64,000 nucleotides of DNA from Bdellovibrionales bacterium (GTDB taxonomy: Bacteria; Bdellovibrionota; Bdellovibrionia; Bdellovibrionales; UBA1609): contig JAHBUX010000002.1 of assembly GCA_019637855.1 (NCBI GenBank), positions 124,001 to 188,000 on the forward strand, written 5' to 3'. This document shows, in pieces, positions 15,127-62,777 of this stretch. Position numbers and translations under genes: made by a program. The number at the start of each line of letters is the position of its first letter. Position 1 is the first letter of the stretch. Below the pieces are notes generated by a model, which was not told where the DNA came from, ran no database searches, and worked only from the letters and a program-made list of their open reading frames with translations.

Positions 15127-15179
15127 TAAAACTATCTCTATTCACGCTAGATTCTAGAAGGGCGTAGCCCCAATAATGC

Positions 15180-15246
15180 AAAAGGCGAATCTGCCCGAGC
15201 AGTTCGCCTTTTGGGATCAAGCCTCGCCACTGTGAGGAGGATCCAA
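15180..15246 (+). promoter_or_regulatory. Structured leader of micro-ORF 1
   Basis: Two hairpins in series. The first pairs AAAAGGCGAA-CTGC with GCAG-TTCGCCTTTT around a CCGA loop (15180-15212), terminator-like. The second (15211-15246) pairs TTGG-ATC with GAT-CCAA and CCTC with GAGG, burying the GAGGAGG Shine-Dalgarno (15234-15240) and abutting the ATG at 15246. Confidence 0.6.
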
Positions 15247-15353
15247 TGCGTAAAGACAAGTACTTACGTATTCGGAGAATTCTGGGGGTTATTGAAGTGC
15301 TATTGCGGATAATTTTGTACGTCGTCTTTCTTCTGCGGCAGTTTCTTTTTTAA
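15246..15353 (+). CDS. 35-residue hydrophobic peptide, copy 1
   Basis: Too short for ordinary ORF calling, but supported by a GAGGAGG Shine-Dalgarno five bases upstream and by a diverged second copy in which most changes are silent or conservative. The peptide has a basic start (MRKDKYLRIRR) followed by a hydrophobic stretch with scattered Arg (ILGVIEVLLRIILYVVFLL). A single short membrane-active helix is likely. Size, charge pattern, tandem copies and locked ribosome site are reminiscent of type I toxin peptides, which is inference. No similarity to a named family is claimed. Confidence 0.6.
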   Translation: MRKDKYLRIRRILGVIEVLLRIILYVVFLLRQFLF

Positions 15354-15365
15354 CCCACATCTAGG

Positions 15366-15382
15366 TGCTCCAATGTGTCTAA
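15366..15382 (+). repeat. 17-mer TGCTCCAATGTGTCTAA, copy A
   Basis: Lies 12 bases after the micro-ORF 1 stop. Identical copies are at 15734-15750 and 60415-60431, and the first 15 bases occur inverted at 58347-58361, at the predicted 5' end of the second flagellin transcript. Confidence 0.8.
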
Positions 15383-15547
15383 CGTGACTGAGCATCGGAC
15401 CATGGTCGTGTTCTCAAACCCAGAGGTCAGGATCCAAAGGCGGCTGCGAGGGCACTTTTGTCCGAGATACGAATCGACGTCTGCCTCTCGGACAGCATTG
15501 CGTTCGTAGTCGATCGAAAAAGCATTTCAGCATGGTTTTAAAAATGC

Positions 15548-15614
15548 AAAAGGCGAATCTGCCCGAGCAGTTCGCCTTTTGGGATCAAGCCTCGCTACTG
15601 TGAGGAGGATCCAA
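15548..15614 (+). promoter_or_regulatory. Structured leader of micro-ORF 2
   Basis: The same pair of hairpins as before micro-ORF 1: a terminator-like stem (15548-15580) and a stem covering the GAGGAGG at 15602-15608. Conservation of both stems between copies supports function at the RNA level. Confidence 0.6.
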
Positions 15615-15721
15615 TGCGTAAACAGAAGTATTTACGTATTCGGAGAGTTCTAGGGGTTATTGAAGTGCTGTTGCGGATAATTTTGTACGTCGTCTCTTTT
15701 CTGCGGCAGATTCTTCTTTAG
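15614..15721 (+). CDS. 35-residue hydrophobic peptide, copy 2
   Basis: Same length, start context and charge pattern as copy 1: MRKQKYLRIRRVLG, then a hydrophobic run IEVLLRIILYVVSFLRQ. Differences from copy 1 include several third-position changes (TAC/TAT, CTG/CTA, CTA/CTG) and Ile to Val, as expected for coding DNA under constraint. The stop changes from TAA to TAG without altering length. Likely membrane peptide of unknown role. Confidence 0.6.
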   Translation: MRKQKYLRIRRVLGVIEVLLRIILYVVSFLRQILL

Positions 15722-15733
15722 CCCTGGTCCAGG

Positions 15734-15750
15734 TGCTCCAATGTGTCTAA
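15734..15750 (+). repeat. 17-mer TGCTCCAATGTGTCTAA, copy B
   Basis: Identical to the copy at 15366-15382 and placed the same way, 12 bases after the micro-ORF 2 stop. Confidence 0.8.
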
Positions 15751-15866
15751 ACGTGACTGAGCATCGGACCATGGTCGTGTTTCTAAACCCAGAGGTTAGA
15801 ATCCAAAGGCGGCTGCGAGGGCACTTTCTCAATCCCCAGATTCACACCGCCGATAAGATATCGACT

Positions 15867-47923: not shown

Positions 47924-48154
47924 ATGTTGGTCCTTACGCGAAAGCTCGGCGAAAGTATCGCGATCGACGATCACATCAAAATTCGCGTGGTCCAGATTAA
48001 GGGCAAACAAGTGCGCCTGGGCATTGAAGCTCCTAAGGACACCAAGATCCACCGCGAAGAAGTCTACTTGGCAATTCAGAATCAGAACCAAGAGTCTGCC
48101 AGCACCTCATCCGACAGCACCAAGGCTGTGGCTGAACTGCTTAAATCTAAGTAG
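47924..48154 (+). CDS. csrA: RNA-binding translational regulator CsrA
   Basis: A 76-residue CsrA: MLVLTRKLGESIAIDDHIKI, VVQIKGKQVRLGIEAP and the DTKIHREEVYL helix, including the RNA-binding Leu4/Arg6 and Arg44-type (HREE) positions, followed by an extra Ser-rich tail of about 20 residues. CsrA blocks translation at GGA-loop hairpins near ribosome sites; such hairpins are present in three flagellin leaders downstream. fliW follows by 86 bases, forming the usual regulator-antagonist pair. Confidence 0.95.
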   Translation: MLVLTRKLGESIAIDDHIKIRVVQIKGKQVRLGIEAPKDTKIHREEVYLAIQNQNQESASTSSDSTKAVAELLKSK

Positions 48155-48240: not shown

Positions 48241-48771
48241 GTGGTTATTCATACCAGCCGTTTTGGTGCTGTTTCGCTGACATCCGATGACGTCATTCAC
48301 TTTCCCGAGGGGTTGTTGGGTTTCAATGAACTCCGTCGCTTCGTTCTCTTGGACGATCCGACCGATGAAATCTTCGCCTGGCTACAAAGCTGCGAGGAGC
48401 CTGGAATCGCTTTTCCTCTGCTCGAGCCAGAGCTTTTCACCGCCGGCTACAACTGCCAGTTGACCAAGCACGATCTTGAGATTTTGCAGGTACCCAATAA
48501 AGAGGGACTGCGCTACTTCACGATCATCACCATTCCGCAAGATCCCACGCAAATGACCGCCAACCTCAAAGCTCCAATTGTGATCAACGTGGCGAAGAGA
48601 GTGGCGCGCCAATGCGTATTGCAAGACAACAGTCTTGCTATCCGCGAGCCGATCTTTACCCGCTTACAACAACGGGTGGTGCAGAACCCAACGGCGGCGA
48701 TCAAAGCGCAGGGTGGTTTCGGTGAAGTGGCCGTGCGGATTGGCAAGCGTCCGCCCGAAGTGGAAGGCTAA
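48241..48771 (+). CDS. fliW: Flagellar assembly factor FliW (CsrA antagonist)
   Basis: A 176-residue FliW with ITF-type opening DVIHFPEGLLGFNELRRFVLLDD, the core WLQSCEEPGIAFPLLEPELF, and APIVINVAKRVARQCVL. FliW binds CsrA and, alternatively, flagellin, so that flagellin secretion releases FliW to free flagellin translation. Starts GTG with GGGGGAAG upstream. About 25 residues longer than typical FliW at the C-terminus. Confidence 0.93.
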   Translation: MVIHTSRFGAVSLTSDDVIHFPEGLLGFNELRRFVLLDDPTDEIFAWLQSCEEPGIAFPLLEPELFTAGYNCQLTKHDLEILQVPNKEGLRYFTIITIPQDPTQMTANLKAPIVINVAKRVARQCVLQDNSLAIREPIFTRLQQRVVQNPTAAIKAQGGFGEVAVRIGKRPPEVEG

Positions 48772-57120: not shown

Positions 57121-57147
57121 TAAAGTCTTAGTGCGTCGCGTCGATAA
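57121..57147 (+). promoter_or_regulatory. Sigma-28 promoter of the first flagellin gene
   Basis: TAAAGTCT (57121-57128), 11 bases, GTCGATAA (57140-57147), close to TAAAGTTT-N11-GCCGATAA. The start point would be near 57154, leaving a leader of about 100 bases. Confidence 0.8.
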
Positions 57148-57153
57148 GTTCTA

Positions 57154-57170
57154 TGACTGCTGAATTGAAC
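57154..57170 (+). repeat. 17-nt segment complementary to the second flagellin leader
   Basis: TGACTGCTGAATTGAAC is the exact reverse complement of 58371-58387. It begins at about the predicted transcription start of the first flagellin gene. Confidence 0.85.
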
Positions 57171-57255
57171 CATGTCTGTGGGCGCTAAAACTTTCTTTGT
57201 CTCGTGATAGGGCGGGGGTCATATCGCGAGCTTGGGAGAGAAGGAGGGTGCCCAC

Positions 57256-58086
57256 GTGTCTTTTAGGATCTCAACCAGTTCGGTACCGCTACAGGCGGCC
57301 CGACATCTATCAAATGCTCAAGCCCAAATAGATCGATCATTGGCCGCTCTGGCGTCAGGTTCGCGTGTGGTGCGCGCGGGCGATGATGCCGCCGGATTTG
57401 CAATATCAGAAAACTTACGTGGGCAACTTGGTGGTACAAAACAAGCCAAGTTTAATGCGGAGTCTGCAGCTAGTTTGGTGCAGACCGCCGAGGGCGGGCT
57501 AAACGAACAGAACAATATTCTCGTGCGTTTGCGCGAGCTGGCGGTGTACGCCGCCTCTGACACCATCGGTGATGATGAACGTCAGTTTCTGGATACGGAA
57601 TTCCAACAGTTAACCGACGAGTTCGATCGTATCGCCAAGACGACGCGCTATGGGAATAAGTCTTTGCTGACGGGGACTGGCGAGGAGTTTTCCTTCCAAG
57701 TCGGAGCCTTCAAGGGCGAAGAGAACGTGATTAAGTTCAAACTCGACGCCGACACCACTTCGAGCGATGTGGGCATCGACGGGCTGGATATTGAAGATCA
57801 AGATGCGGCTTTAGATGCGTTGAACAGTTTGGACGATGCGATCTTGCATGTGGCGGGAACTCGCTCCACCTTTGGTGCCATGCAGAGTCGTCTGCAGCAT
57901 GCGGTGGGAGCTCTGGACGTCCAAGCCGAAAACTTAGATGCTGCCCGCGGCCACATCACCGACGTTAATGTCGCCGAGGAGACCGCGAAGCTAGCTCAAG
58001 CCCAAATTCAACAGCAGGCCGGCATAGCCGTCCTCGCCCAAGCCAACGCCGCCAATGCCCGCGCCATCCACCTACTAGACATCTAA
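57256..58086 (+). CDS. fliC: Flagellin, divergent paralogue 1
   Basis: A 276-residue flagellin with only the conserved D0/D1 ends and a very short middle. The N-terminus reads SFRISTSSVPLQAARHLSNA and SGSRVVRAGDDAAGFAISENL, where the other three paralogues have SGSRI-KAADDAAGL. The C-terminus ends NARAIHLLDI instead of the A-L-K-L-I ending of the others. GTG 57256 is chosen because AAGGAGGG is seven bases upstream; TTG 57232 would add eight residues. It may be a minor or positional filament subunit. Confidence 0.88.
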   Translation: MSFRISTSSVPLQAARHLSNAQAQIDRSLAALASGSRVVRAGDDAAGFAISENLRGQLGGTKQAKFNAESAASLVQTAEGGLNEQNNILVRLRELAVYAASDTIGDDERQFLDTEFQQLTDEFDRIAKTTRYGNKSLLTGTGEEFSFQVGAFKGEENVIKFKLDADTTSSDVGIDGLDIEDQDAALDALNSLDDAILHVAGTRSTFGAMQSRLQHAVGALDVQAENLDAARGHITDVNVAEETAKLAQAQIQQQAGIAVLAQANAANARAIHLLDI

Positions 58087-58088
58087 AA

Positions 58089-58184
58089 GGTAGGGCCTAA
58101 CATTTCCGGGCGTATATTCGTTCTGGGGGTAGGGCCTAACATTTCCGCGAATGTATTCGCGGAAATGTTAGGCCCTACCTTTTT
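58089..58184 (+). repeat. REP-like palindrome, one partial and one perfect copy
   Basis: GGTAGGGCCTAACATTTCCG occurs at 58089-58108 and again at 58128-58147. The second copy extends to CGCGAA and forms a perfect 24-bp inverted repeat (58128-58151 with 58156-58179) around TGTA, followed by five T residues. It can act as the terminator of the first flagellin gene. Same family as 1965-2110. Confidence 0.85.
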
Positions 58185-58298
58185 CCGGACACTGCATTTA
58201 GTCATGACGCTATGTGGCTTATGGGGTCCAGCGCAAAAAAATTTTCATCTGACTCTGTGAGTGGATTCGTGCACTAGACGCGCCGCGTACCGGTGTGA

Positions 58299-58339
58299 CC
58301 TGGACCAAAGGCTAAAGCTTCCTGGACCAAAGCCGAGAA
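58299..58339 (+). promoter_or_regulatory. Sigma-28 promoter of the second flagellin gene, with direct repeats
   Basis: TAAAGCTT (58313-58320), 11 bases, GCCGAGAA (58332-58339) is a near-consensus FliA promoter. CCTGGACCAAAG occurs at 58299-58310 and 58321-58332, 22 bases apart, the second copy filling the spacer. Confidence 0.85.
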
Positions 58340-58346
58340 GTTACCC

Positions 58347-58449
58347 AGACACATTGGAGCAACTCAAGCAGTTCAATTCAGCAGTCACTGATTGAACCCG
58401 CCTAAGTAACTCCAGAGGTGAAGGGACAGTCACCCCTTCGCCTCCGGAG
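58347..58449 (+). promoter_or_regulatory. Structured leader of the second flagellin gene
   Basis: From the predicted start point it contains AGACACATTGGAGCA (58347-58361, complement of the 15-mer at 60415 and of the micro-ORF cassettes). Next is a hairpin GTTCAAT/ATTGAAC (58371-58397) whose arm and loop complement 57154-57170, and then a strong stem GAGGTGAAGGG/CCCTTCGCCTC (58410-58449). The rest of the 503-base gap holds the repeat, the promoter and a CsrA-type hairpin. Confidence 0.6.
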
Positions 58450-58553
58450 GCCTCCAATAAAGCAAAAACTAATAACCCGACAGGGACCGTCCTGTTCAGT
58501 TCGTCTTATTCAGCCGCTGTGAAAGCGTCTGTTGGGCGGATGAGCTGGGCAGT

Positions 58554-58589: not shown

Positions 58590-59420
58590 ATGGGCTTACG
58601 GATCAATACAAACGTTGCGTCGATTTCCGCGCAACGCGTGCTGAACAAACAGCAGTCCCGCATGGAGCATGCACAGCAGGCTCTCGCATCAGGTTCCCGC
58701 ATCGTTAAGGCTGCCGACGACGCCGCCGGTCTGGCCGTTTCCGAAAACATCCGCGGACAGGTCGCGGGTATCAAAATGGCGCGTATGAACGCGTTCAATG
58801 CACAATCATTGATTCAAGTGTCCGAAGGCGGACTCAATGAGATCAGCAACATCTTGATTCGTTTGCGCGAATTGGGTGTGCAAGCTGCATCCGACACAGT
58901 GAGCGATGTGGAAAGATCCTTCTTGAATCAAGAAGCCACACAGCTCGTGGCGGAATCCGAACGGATTGCCAAGTCCACGCGCTTCGGTAACAAAGCTCTA
59001 CTCGACGGCAACGGCGAAGAGTTTGAATACCACGTCGGTCCTTTCGCCGACGAAGAGCAGAACACGATTAAGTATAAGATTGAGGCAGATGCCACCACCG
59101 GCACTCTGGGAATCGACGGTGTCGATATCTCGGATCGCTCGGGTGCACGTGATACGTTGCAGTCGGTGGATGATGCTCTTGTGAAAATCGGTCAAATGCG
59201 CGCCGACTTCGGTGCCGTGCAAAGCCGATTGCAGATCACGACCAGCAACTTGGACATCCAGTATGAAAACCTCTCGGCCGCGAAATCGCGCATCTCGGAT
59301 GCCGACATCGCTTACGAGAGCGCTGAGATGACTTCCGCTCAAATTCTTCAGTCCGCGTCGGTGAGTGTGTTGGCGCAAGCTAACCAAAACGGCGCCGCGG
59401 CTCTGAAGCTGATCGCCTAA
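58590..59420 (+). CDS. fliC: Flagellin paralogue 2
   Basis: A 276-residue filament subunit: MGLRINTNVASISAQRVLNK, ASGSRIVKAADDAAGLAVSEN, ISNILIRLRELGVQAASDTV, and the C-terminal helix SISDADIAYESAEMTSAQIL-like ISDADIAYESAEMTSAQIL, ending ALKLIA. The variable D2/D3 domains are absent, as in short flagellins. AGGAGG precedes the ATG. Control is likely layered: sigma-28 promoter, CsrA hairpin and the structured leader. Confidence 0.95.
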   Translation: MGLRINTNVASISAQRVLNKQQSRMEHAQQALASGSRIVKAADDAAGLAVSENIRGQVAGIKMARMNAFNAQSLIQVSEGGLNEISNILIRLRELGVQAASDTVSDVERSFLNQEATQLVAESERIAKSTRFGNKALLDGNGEEFEYHVGPFADEEQNTIKYKIEADATTGTLGIDGVDISDRSGARDTLQSVDDALVKIGQMRADFGAVQSRLQITTSNLDIQYENLSAAKSRISDADIAYESAEMTSAQILQSASVSVLAQANQNGAAALKLIA

Positions 59421-59548
59421 TTGATTCAAAATTGAACGCGTGCGGGGCCGAAAGGCCCTGTGCGTAGGTTTCCAAAGTATTCCGCATTTGAATACGGTAG
59501 AGTCGCGCGCGCCCACAGACAAACGCGCGGTTCGAGACCGTAAGCCCG

Positions 59549-60284: not shown

Positions 60285-60311
60285 TTTAGTTCGCCCAGAC
60301 CTGGCCGATCA
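60285..60311 (+). promoter_or_regulatory. Sigma-28 promoter of the third flagellin gene
   Basis: TTTAGTTC (60285-60292), 11 bases, GCCGATCA (60304-60311). The surrounding bases (GACCCGACTTTAG, GCTAGTC) resemble those at the fourth flagellin promoter. The leader is about 240 bases; the 324-base gap before the gene contains this promoter, the 17-mer and the GGA hairpin. Confidence 0.75.
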
Positions 60312-60414
60312 GCTAGTCAAGCAAGCAGTGGATTGGGTGAATCGGAGACGAGAACCCCGGTGGAGTGACTGCCCCGGTAAAGTTCGTTTGCAATCTCCAA
60401 AGCATTTTTTCAAC

Positions 60415-60431
60415 TGCTCCAATGTGTCTAA
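60415..60431 (+). repeat. 17-mer TGCTCCAATGTGTCTAA, copy C
   Basis: Identical to the copies in the micro-ORF cassettes. It lies about 100 bases into the third flagellin leader. Its first 15 bases are complementary to the 5' end of the second flagellin leader (58347-58361). Confidence 0.85.
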
Positions 60432-60523
60432 CCCAAGCCGCAAGGAAGCGTCGCTTTTCTCACTGACTCCCGGAGTAGGTTCCGGGCGAGAGGAGCCGGG
60501 CTCTAACCGTCCGACAGGACGAA

Positions 60524-60559: not shown

Positions 60560-61393
60560 ATGGGTCTGAGAATCACAACGAACTTGCCGAGTATCTCGGC
60601 GCAAAGAACAATGGCCACCAGCCAGCGCGAAATCAATAAATCCTTCGCGCAAATGTCGAGCGGCAGCCGCATCACTAAAGCTGCTGACGACGCCGCCGGA
60701 TTGTCTATCAGCGAAACGCTGAAGTCGACCATCCGCGGTTACACACAAGCACAACGCAACTCGAACGACGGTATCTCGATGGTGCAGGTGTCTGAGGGTG
60801 GCTTGGCTGAAATCTCTAACATCCTGACTCGCATGCGTGAGTTGGGCGTACAAGCCGCTTCCGACACTGTGGGTGACGTTGAGCGCGGTTTCGTCGACAA
60901 AGAGGTTCAGCAACTTAAGAGCGAGATGGAGCGTATTGCGAAGACCACTCGTTGGGGCAGCCAAACTCTGCTCGACGGTACAGGTACTGAGTACTCGTTC
61001 CAAGTGGACATCAACAATGACGACTTCAACGATCGCATTGCCTTCGATGCCTCCCAACAAGACGCCACTATCGCCACCTTGGGTGTAGATGGCTTTGATT
61101 TTTCAACCAAAGACGGCGCTCGCGAAGCTCTTGAAATCCTCGAAGGCTCGCAACGCCAAGTGAACGGTTATCGCGCCAACTTGGGTGCGATCCAAAACCG
61201 CTTGATCTCCACCGCCGAAAACCTCGGTGTGGCGATTGAGAACTTCAGCGGCGCCAACTCACGCGTTCGCGATGCCGACATCGCACAGAGCTCGGCGGAA
61301 TCCACTCGCAACAACATCTTGTTGAATGCGTCGGTTGGAGTTCTTGCGCAAGCTAACCAACAGCCGGCTATGGCCTTGAAGCTGATCGGTTAA
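60560..61393 (+). CDS. fliC: Flagellin paralogue 3
   Basis: A 277-residue flagellin: MGLRITTNLPSISAQRTMAT, SGSRITKAADDAAGLSISET, LKSTIRGYTQAQRNSNDGIS and ending PAMALKLIG. It shares long near-identical stretches with paralogue 4, for example the first 60 codons and the QVDINNDDF segment. AAGGAGGA lies before the ATG. Lacks the variable outer domains. Confidence 0.95.
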   Translation: MGLRITTNLPSISAQRTMATSQREINKSFAQMSSGSRITKAADDAAGLSISETLKSTIRGYTQAQRNSNDGISMVQVSEGGLAEISNILTRMRELGVQAASDTVGDVERGFVDKEVQQLKSEMERIAKTTRWGSQTLLDGTGTEYSFQVDINNDDFNDRIAFDASQQDATIATLGVDGFDFSTKDGAREALEILEGSQRQVNGYRANLGAIQNRLISTAENLGVAIENFSGANSRVRDADIAQSSAESTRNNILLNASVGVLAQANQQPAMALKLIG

Positions 61394-61848: not shown

Positions 61849-61943
61849 CTCCCATGCAGGACCGAGTAGGTACGGAAATGCGCGGGTGAGAGAGGGATTT
61901 CTTTTACCAAAGCCTGTCACCCATCAGGCAAAAGGAGAACACC

Positions 61944-62777
61944 ATGGGAATGAGAGTCACAACAAACTTAGCGTCTATCAATGCTCAAAAGAGCATGATG
62001 AGCAGCCAGCGCGAAATCAACAGAAGCTTCGCGCAATTGTCGAGCGGCAGCCGCATCACGAAAGCCGCCGACGACGCGGCTGGATTGTCGATCAGCGAAA
62101 CCTTGAAGTCGACCATCCGCGGATATGCACAAGCTCAACGTAACGCCAACGACGGTATGTCGATGGTCGCGGTGGCAGAAGGTGGTTTGGGCGAAATCTC
62201 CAACATCTTGACCCGCTTGAGAGAGTTGGGCGTACAAGCCGCTTCTGATACAGTCGGCGATATCGAACGCTCTTTTATCAATAAAGAAGTTCAACAATTG
62301 ATCTCGGAAACGGATCGTATCGCGCAAACCACGCGTTTCAACAAAACGACTCTGCTGAACGGCGAAGGCCAACGCTTCGAGTTCCAGGTCGATATTAACA
62401 ATGATGATTTCAAAGATCGCATCGGTTTCGAACCGGCTGAAATCAAAGCCACCACTGACGCTCTCGGTGTTTCGGGCTTCGATTTCTCCGACAAAATGGA
62501 TGCGCGCCAAGCCTTGGAAGTTTTGGAGGATGCTCAGCGTACCGTTAACGGTTACCGCGCCACTCTAGGAGCTATCCAGAACCGCCTCGTGTCGACAACG
62601 GACAACTTGGGTGTTGCCGTCGAGAACTTCTCGGCCGCGAACTCGCGCATCCGTGACGCCGACGTCGCCCAGAGCTCGGCTGAACTGGCACGCAACAACA
62701 TCCTGTTGAATGCCTCTGTGGGTGTGTTGGCACAAGCTAACCAAATGCCCGCTGCAGCCCTGAAACTGGTCGGCTAA
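61944..62777 (+). CDS. fliC: Flagellin paralogue 4
   Basis: A 277-residue flagellin: MGMRVTTNLASINAQKSMMS, SGSRITKAADDAAGLSISET, LGEISNILTRLRELGVQAAS, ending MPAAALKLVG. Very similar to paralogue 3, indicating recent duplication or gene conversion. AAAGGAG precedes the ATG. The 3' end is followed by a strong hairpin terminator. Confidence 0.95.
   Translation: MGMRVTTNLASINAQKSMMSSQREINRSFAQLSSGSRITKAADDAAGLSISETLKSTIRGYAQAQRNANDGMSMVAVAEGGLGEISNILTRLRELGVQAASDTVGDIERSFINKEVQQLISETDRIAQTTRFNKTTLLNGEGQRFEFQVDINNDDFKDRIGFEPAEIKATTDALGVSGFDFSDKMDARQALEVLEDAQRTVNGYRATLGAIQNRLVSTTDNLGVAVENFSAANSRIRDADVAQSSAELARNNILLNASVGVLAQANQMPAAALKLVG

Follow-up and report, generated by a model that had tools for sequence, protein, structure and literature searches.

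Flagellin genes and predicted transcripts

The window analyzed here, a stretch of DNA 64,000 nt in length, lies within a 3.37-Mb genome (G000) whose relatives in public records are named Bdellovibrionales. It contains four flagellin genes in tandem, which we named fliC1 to fliC4 by gene order; these names are our own. fliC1 (57256-58086, + strand) has a GTG start and encodes a DDAAGF-type flagellin, fliC2 (58590-59420, +) has an ATG start, and fliC3 (60560-61393, +) and fliC4 (61944-62777) follow. Sigma-28-like promoters for fliC1 and fliC2 were found where the initial annotation had expected them. That of fliC1 is TAAAGTCT-N11-GTCGATAA (57121-57147, +), with one mismatch in the scanned positions, and that of fliC2 is TAAAGCTT-N11-GCCGAGAA (58313-58339, +), with a predicted start at about 58347; a weaker match precedes fliC3 (60285-60311, +). 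All transcription start sites given here are predictions from such promoters, with no transcript or start-site data behind them. In B. bacteriovorus, most attack-phase genes are reported to be driven by sigma-28 promoters (PMC3627812).

A strong hairpin, formed by a terminator-like inverted repeat, is located between fliC1 and fliC2 (58127-58179, +), and the two genes are therefore expected to give separate transcripts. The region after fliC1 (58089-58179) contains two direct copies and one inverted copy of GTAGGGCCTAACATTTCCG, a repeat that is used here as the terminator-like hairpin and has another copy at 1966. Throughout the order, the -35 element and spacer of the fliC2 promoter are straddled by repeats of the type CTGGACCAAAG / CTAGACC (58300-58332 in the window; L001-L026 in relatives), with similar motifs ahead of fliC3; these repeats are possibly an activator site or a sigma-specific feature. 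A further motif, GAGTAGG, recurs in the leaders of fliC3 (about 60480-60500) and fliC4 (about 61865-61880) and in their orthologues, and in fliC3 it is found within a small hairpin loop.

Complementarity between the fliC1 and fliC2 leaders

According to the initial annotation, the leaders of the first two flagellin genes are complementary over 17 nt, and the second copy is part of a hairpin. Both statements were confirmed. The sequence TGACTGCTGAATTGAAC at 57154-57170 (+), hereafter fliC1 site A, is the exact reverse complement of 58371-58387, which makes up the 5' arm and loop of a GTTCAAT/ATTGAAC hairpin in the fliC2 leader (hairpin 1, 58371-58397, +). The fliC1 promoter places the predicted start at about 57154, the first base of this segment, so that site A corresponds to the predicted first 17 nt of the fliC1 RNA. 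A search of the 64-kb window with up to three mismatches gave only two matches to TGACTGCTGAATTGAAC, while shuffled sequences gave an average of 0.09, and the whole of G000 contains the same two sites only, at fewer than two mismatches. The net energy of this contact (contact 1) in the window sequence, after the opening cost, is -11.5 kcal/mol; it is still favourable after paying for the opening of local structure.

To see how this complementarity behaves in relatives, we assembled a set of 30 fliC1/fliC2 pairs representing several families of the order Bdellovibrionales. In 28 of these 30 pairs, the fliC1 mRNA at its predicted 5' end complements the fliC2-leader hairpin in its loop and 5' arm; this hairpin lies 25-45 nt into the leader, and the sequences vary on both sides. 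The fliC1 segments GTTCATTTCAGCAGTCA, CATCATTTCAGCAGAT, GGTTCATTTAGCAGTCA, GGTCGTTTATAGTCA and CAGGTCTTTTACAGT are each matched by their own complement in fliC2. Over the 30 pairs, the mean duplex energy is -33.1 kcal/mol, compared with -23.9 kcal/mol for permuted partners and -17.1 kcal/mol for shuffled sequence. Changes on both sides were observed at 13 of the 17 base pairs, and parsimony on the fliC2 protein tree gave about 44 joint compensatory steps, a count for which there is no null model. Given that the best complementary run was used to align the sites, a choice that favours pairing, we also carried out permutation, sliding and additional-genome tests. None of 20,000 permuted pairings was as good as the cognate one (the permutation tests used in this study take no account of the tree), and 94.6% of the cells in the aligned sites are paired, against 21-43% when the sites are slid by 1-3 nt. 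Five genomes outside the 30-pair set, examined afterwards (G007, G010, G015, G114 and G116), all pair over 15-21 nt. Two genomes (L179 and L180) have lost both partners: the fliC2 leader is short and has no hairpin, and the fliC1 segment is also missing. Thus, covariation of both sites in relatives, which the initial annotation had itself proposed as the test for pairing, is strongly present.

The complementary segments lie in the untranslated regions of two separate mRNAs, as mRNA-mRNA pairing would require. In the window this separation is indicated by the two promoters and the terminator-like hairpin, and in some relatives the genes are on different contigs (G007 and G114) or are divergent (G010). 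The further expectation for a regulatory pairing of this kind, that complementarity is maintained by compensatory change, is also met.

It is also conceivable that the element acts in DNA, as an operator at which one regulator binds the same sequence in opposite orientation at two promoters, a reading that had been rated equal to RNA pairing. The element does lie near two promoters, and hairpin 1 is palindromic. However, an operator should be recognizable as a conserved DNA sequence or palindrome, usually with more genomic copies, and this was not the case: G000 has just two copies, their positions are unlike (+1 and about +25), the sequences drift widely while complementarity is kept, and across species the 17-mer shows palindromic symmetry only at the level of chance (2.2 of 8 positions, with 2 expected). 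Moreover, fliC1 and fliC2 are arranged head-to-head in G010, so that the elements are direct repeats in the DNA and only the RNAs stay complementary. The three other flagellin contacts described below show the same behaviour. The operator reading is thus not supported, and we regard it as very unlikely. Because a DNA-level element is not expected to follow transcript sense, we consider the orientation in G010, together with the covariation, decisive for RNA pairing as the selected property of contact 1.

The same observations bear on two other explanations. Since fliC1 is flanked by 17-bp inverted repeats, the repeats might serve DNA inversion, as in flagellar phase variation. They are, however, short and diverge freely between species, the spacing of the genes varies from about 0.2 to 7.4 kb where they are not on separate contigs, and the repeats are direct in G010; inversion is therefore hardly conceivable. 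Both the inversion and the operator readings were rejected after testing. Alternatively, the match might reflect chance or neutral shared ancestry, one leader being derived from the other by duplication. Such copying in the distant past is possible, since site A has the same sequence in its 3' half as hairpin 1 in its 3' arm, but the many compensatory changes and the co-loss of both partners require ongoing selection, so that ancestry or chance alone is extremely improbable.

Further predicted contacts among the fliC1, fliC2 and fliC3 transcripts

We also found a second exact match, which is absent from the initial annotation. The predicted first 15 nt of the fliC2 RNA (AGACACATTGGAGCA, 58347-58361, +) are the exact reverse complement of TGCTCCAATGTGTCT in the fliC3 leader (60415-60429, +). 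This contact 2 has a net energy of -16.1 kcal/mol in the window sequence after the opening cost, and it likewise remains favourable once local structure has been opened. The corresponding sequences are GAACACGTTGGAGCA / TGCTCCAACGTGTTC in relatives of the same genus, and ...CATGTTGG / CCAACATG..., TAAGTAAGTTGGAGC / GCTCCAACTTACTTA and TGTTGTACACGTTGG / CCAACGTGTACAACA in other relatives. Among 39 genomes, the mean cognate run is 13.0, compared with 10.2 for permuted partners (0 of 20,000 permutations), and 11 of the 14 pairs have changes on both sides. The match was not found in the tested leaders of six genomes (G019, G021, G076, G077, G135 and G139); in two of these, G135 and G139, a match of the fliC2-fliC3 type is present before another gene.

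The fliC2 5' end has another potential partner within its own leader, which is about 246 nt long and highly structured (z -4.0), with separate contact hairpins. Its ATTGGAG can close the leader by pairing with CTCCAAT at 58452-58458 (+); the equivalent pair is GTTGGAG/CTCCAAC in most genomes and GTTGAAG/CTTCAAC in G009. The cis strand and the fliC3 leader may therefore compete for the fliC2 5' end. RNAalifold gave only weak support on a single global leader alignment because the stems vary in length, whereas the local folds are clear.

Contact 3 is formed by a second hairpin of the fliC2 leader (58415-58444, +), with an 11-bp stem and the loop ACAGTCAC. The loop sequence CAGTCAC is complementary to GTGACTG (60365-60371), part of the motif GAGTGACTGCC (60363-60373, +); in fliC3 leaders, GTGACTG is found upstream of contact 2. 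Covariants are CAATCAC/GTGATTG in G009, G030, G037, G042 and G048, TAGTCAC/GTGACTA in G007 and G033 (6 nt in G025), and CGTCAC/GTGACG in G032. Contacts 2 and 3 are collinear in the antiparallel sense and are able to coexist in one complex.

Contact 4 connects the fliC1 leader with the other end of the fliC2 transcript. In the window, fliC1 site B (TGTCTGTGGGCGC, 57173-57185, +) is complementary to GCGCCCACAGACA in the fliC2 3' UTR (59509-59521, +). Across genomes the contact takes the form of TGTCTGTGGGC, usually about 20-30 nt into the fliC1 RNA, and GCCCACAGACA of the fliC2 3' UTR, and in many genomes the latter is located inside a hairpin loop before the fliC2 terminator. The run averages 12.0 nt, against 10.8 nt in permuted pairings (0 of 20,000), and the changed pairs include GGTCTATGGGC/GCCCATAGACC, TGTCTTTGGGC/GCCCAAAGACA and GATCCGTGGGC/GCCCGCGGATC. 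The last of these is present in both genomes without contact 1, indicating that the contacts are separable. Contacts 2, 3 and 4 therefore all covary.

Other possible pairings were also considered. Site B can pair with the fliC1 start region over 9-10 bp in the window genus, and we asked whether it is kept to mask its own ribosome-binding site; this cis pairing is not conserved, and permuted sequences are equal overall (7.5 vs 7.4), so this candidate was rejected. The fliC2 3' UTR paired no better with the leader of its own mRNA than permuted partners did. The other flagellin leader pairs of this genome and of an HD100-like genome (G042, see below) showed no clear excess of complementarity, except for one unreplicated 13-nt run between fliC2 and the flagellin at C1:825877.

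Proteins and small RNAs that may act on the leaders

Two genes of the flagellar cluster in the window, csrA (47924-48154) and a FliW-like gene (48241-48771), raise the possibility that flagellin is additionally controlled by CsrA-FliW in this organism. Given that flagellin mRNA is under such control in Campylobacter and Bacillus (PMC4894983, PMC6529632), the leaders could be mainly CsrA/FliW targets, with their conserved GGA-containing motifs as protein sites. This notion leaves the complementarity between separate genes unexplained; in addition, the GGA is lost in G009, and yet the partner changes along with it (GTTGAAG / TTCAAC). We therefore think it unlikely as the main explanation, although CsrA/FliW could act in addition to RNA pairing.

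A different question is which molecule carries the contacts. Instead of whole mRNAs, the acting molecule may be a small RNA that arises from one leader by cleavage or termination, for instance from the structured fliC2 leader or from the hairpin of the fliC2 3' UTR, which would use the same contacts. The length and structure of the fliC2 leader, with its separate contact hairpins, would fit such a source, and E. coli is known to have sigma-28-dependent small RNAs, derived from UTRs, that base-pair with fliC mRNA (PMC10578931). However, no termination or processing site has been shown, and every contact has both partners within flagellin mRNAs. A small-RNA carrier thus remains possible, although we are inclined to doubt it. 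A search of Rfam gave no match at the gathering score and only chance-level matches below it, so that the leaders do not correspond to a described RNA family, as might be expected of a UTR-derived small RNA. Likewise, no Pfam match for Hfq was found in four genomes, though controls gave matches, and the encoded Hfq on which Hfq-dependent small RNA regulation relies was therefore not detected in these four.

Proposed mechanism

From the complementarity, its conservation and the compensatory changes, all of which are directly observed, we propose that site A and its complement in fliC2 have been selected to pair as RNA, each on its own flagellin mRNA, and that this contact couples flagellin expression within a network that has the fliC2 mRNA as its hub. 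We consider this proposal likely to be correct, with the reservation that the start sites, pairing in vivo, its consequence and the sign of that consequence are all inferred. In this scheme, the mRNAs of fliC1, fliC2 and fliC3 would be made together under sigma-28. Pairing would be seeded between the free 5' end of the fliC1 RNA (site A) and the loop GCAGUC that fliC2 hairpin 1 exposes, and would then zip through the 5' arm of this hairpin, giving a duplex of 12-23 bp, and site B would contact the fliC2 3' UTR. Instead of closing its own leader, as it also can, the fliC2 5' end would pair with the fliC3 leader, helped by the 7-nt contact between fliC2 loop 2 and the fliC3 motif.

The contact sites are not over conserved ribosome-binding sites and so suggest no obvious direct effect on translation; we therefore favour, with low certainty, an effect on stability or leader folding. 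The likeliest consequence may be that the amounts or timing of adjacent flagellins are coupled, either by opening of the leaders or by way of mRNA stability, with masked 5' ends or RNase III substrates as possible means. In the window genus, site B is predicted to pair with and close the start region of fliC1, and binding of the fliC2 3' UTR could therefore open fliC1, although this is not general. A more far-reaching version, which we put forward only as speculation and think rather unlikely, is a specific multi-mRNA complex, with fliC2 as its hub and held by four covarying contacts, that couples or sequences flagellin translation, so that filament blocks are produced in the right order and ratio. 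If this were true, a gene-order programme would be written in mRNA-mRNA pairing.

Relation to known systems

mRNA-mRNA pairing itself is already known, as PMC7821165 describes for Listeria, where the hly 3' UTR pairs with the prsA2 5' UTR (Ignatov 2020). As in that case, two protein-coding mRNAs here would pair through untranslated ends, and their products act together. According to the same source, hly-prsA2 involves one contact that shields one mRNA from RNase J1, whereas the flagellin system has four separate covarying contacts among three mRNAs, mostly from 5' end to leader, and its effect is only inferred. MotR, FliX, FlgO and UhpU of E. coli are sigma-28-dependent UTR-derived small RNAs (PMC10578931), and they resemble the present system in sigma-28 control (here predicted) and in base pairing with flagellin mRNA. 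In E. coli, however, separate small RNAs pair inside the fliC coding region, with no pairing between paralogous flagellin leaders (PMC10578931), and Hfq is present, unlike in the four genomes without a match. The dual-function flaA mRNA of Campylobacter (CsrA-FliW) is similar in that a flagellin leader is a regulator besides being a message, but it titrates a protein and RNA-RNA covariation is not involved (PMC4894983). We found no published precedent for pairing between flagellin mRNAs in the open-access literature; subscription papers were outside the search.

It is an open question how bacteria that have many flagellins control the amount and order in which these are produced. In Bdellovibrio, the multi-flagellin filament is ordered FliC3-5-1-2-6, and that report gives no mechanism for the ordering, while the parts of it that were available describe no RNA regulation (PMC2791853). 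The window fliC2 and fliC3 are homologous to a gene pair at 562-565 kb of G042, whose six flagellin genes form two pairs and two isolated genes, the arrangement described for B. bacteriovorus HD100. Thus, G042 is probably HD100, an equation that we infer, and the window fliC2 and fliC3 probably correspond to the adjacent fliC1 (Bd0604) and fliC2 (Bd0606) there. The fliC2-fliC3 contacts extend to this genome, although contact 2 is only 12 nt long in it and, taken alone, is not above shuffled leaders. FliC1 and FliC2 of B. bacteriovorus form neighbouring filament blocks (PMC2791853), so that a role of the contacts in ratio or order is plausible but untested.

The change of both partners together across Bdellovibrionales points to flagellin mRNAs that may regulate each other while the multi-flagellin filament is built. 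A network of mutually pairing protein-coding mRNAs, compensatory across an order, would be a clear case of mRNAs regulating mRNAs, and the contacts provide exact, evolution-backed nucleotides to mutate in organisms without detected Hfq.

Additional copies of the fliC3-type site

The window also contains extra copies of the fliC3-type site. They are found at 15366-15380 (+) and 15734-15748 (+), one in each copy of a tandemly repeated element that carries a 35-aa reading frame, and the first is a possible extra partner of the fliC2 5' end. In each of the element copies (15172-15458, 15540-15827, and a third at G000:C1:779640, locus L051), a basic/hydrophobic reading frame of 35 aa precedes TGCTCCAATGTGTCT, which matches the fliC3 site exactly and is hence complementary to the fliC2 5' end. 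GTGACTG occurs just after TGCTCCAATGTGTCT in two of the three copies. Among 47 genomes of the family that were searched, G000 alone gave convincing examples of this element. It is possible that the element is a decoy or an extra regulator. In L051, a long inverted repeat, GGTCGGAATTTCGCAGGCGCGGAAGGAGCTTCGTCGAC, adjoins the third small-ORF element.
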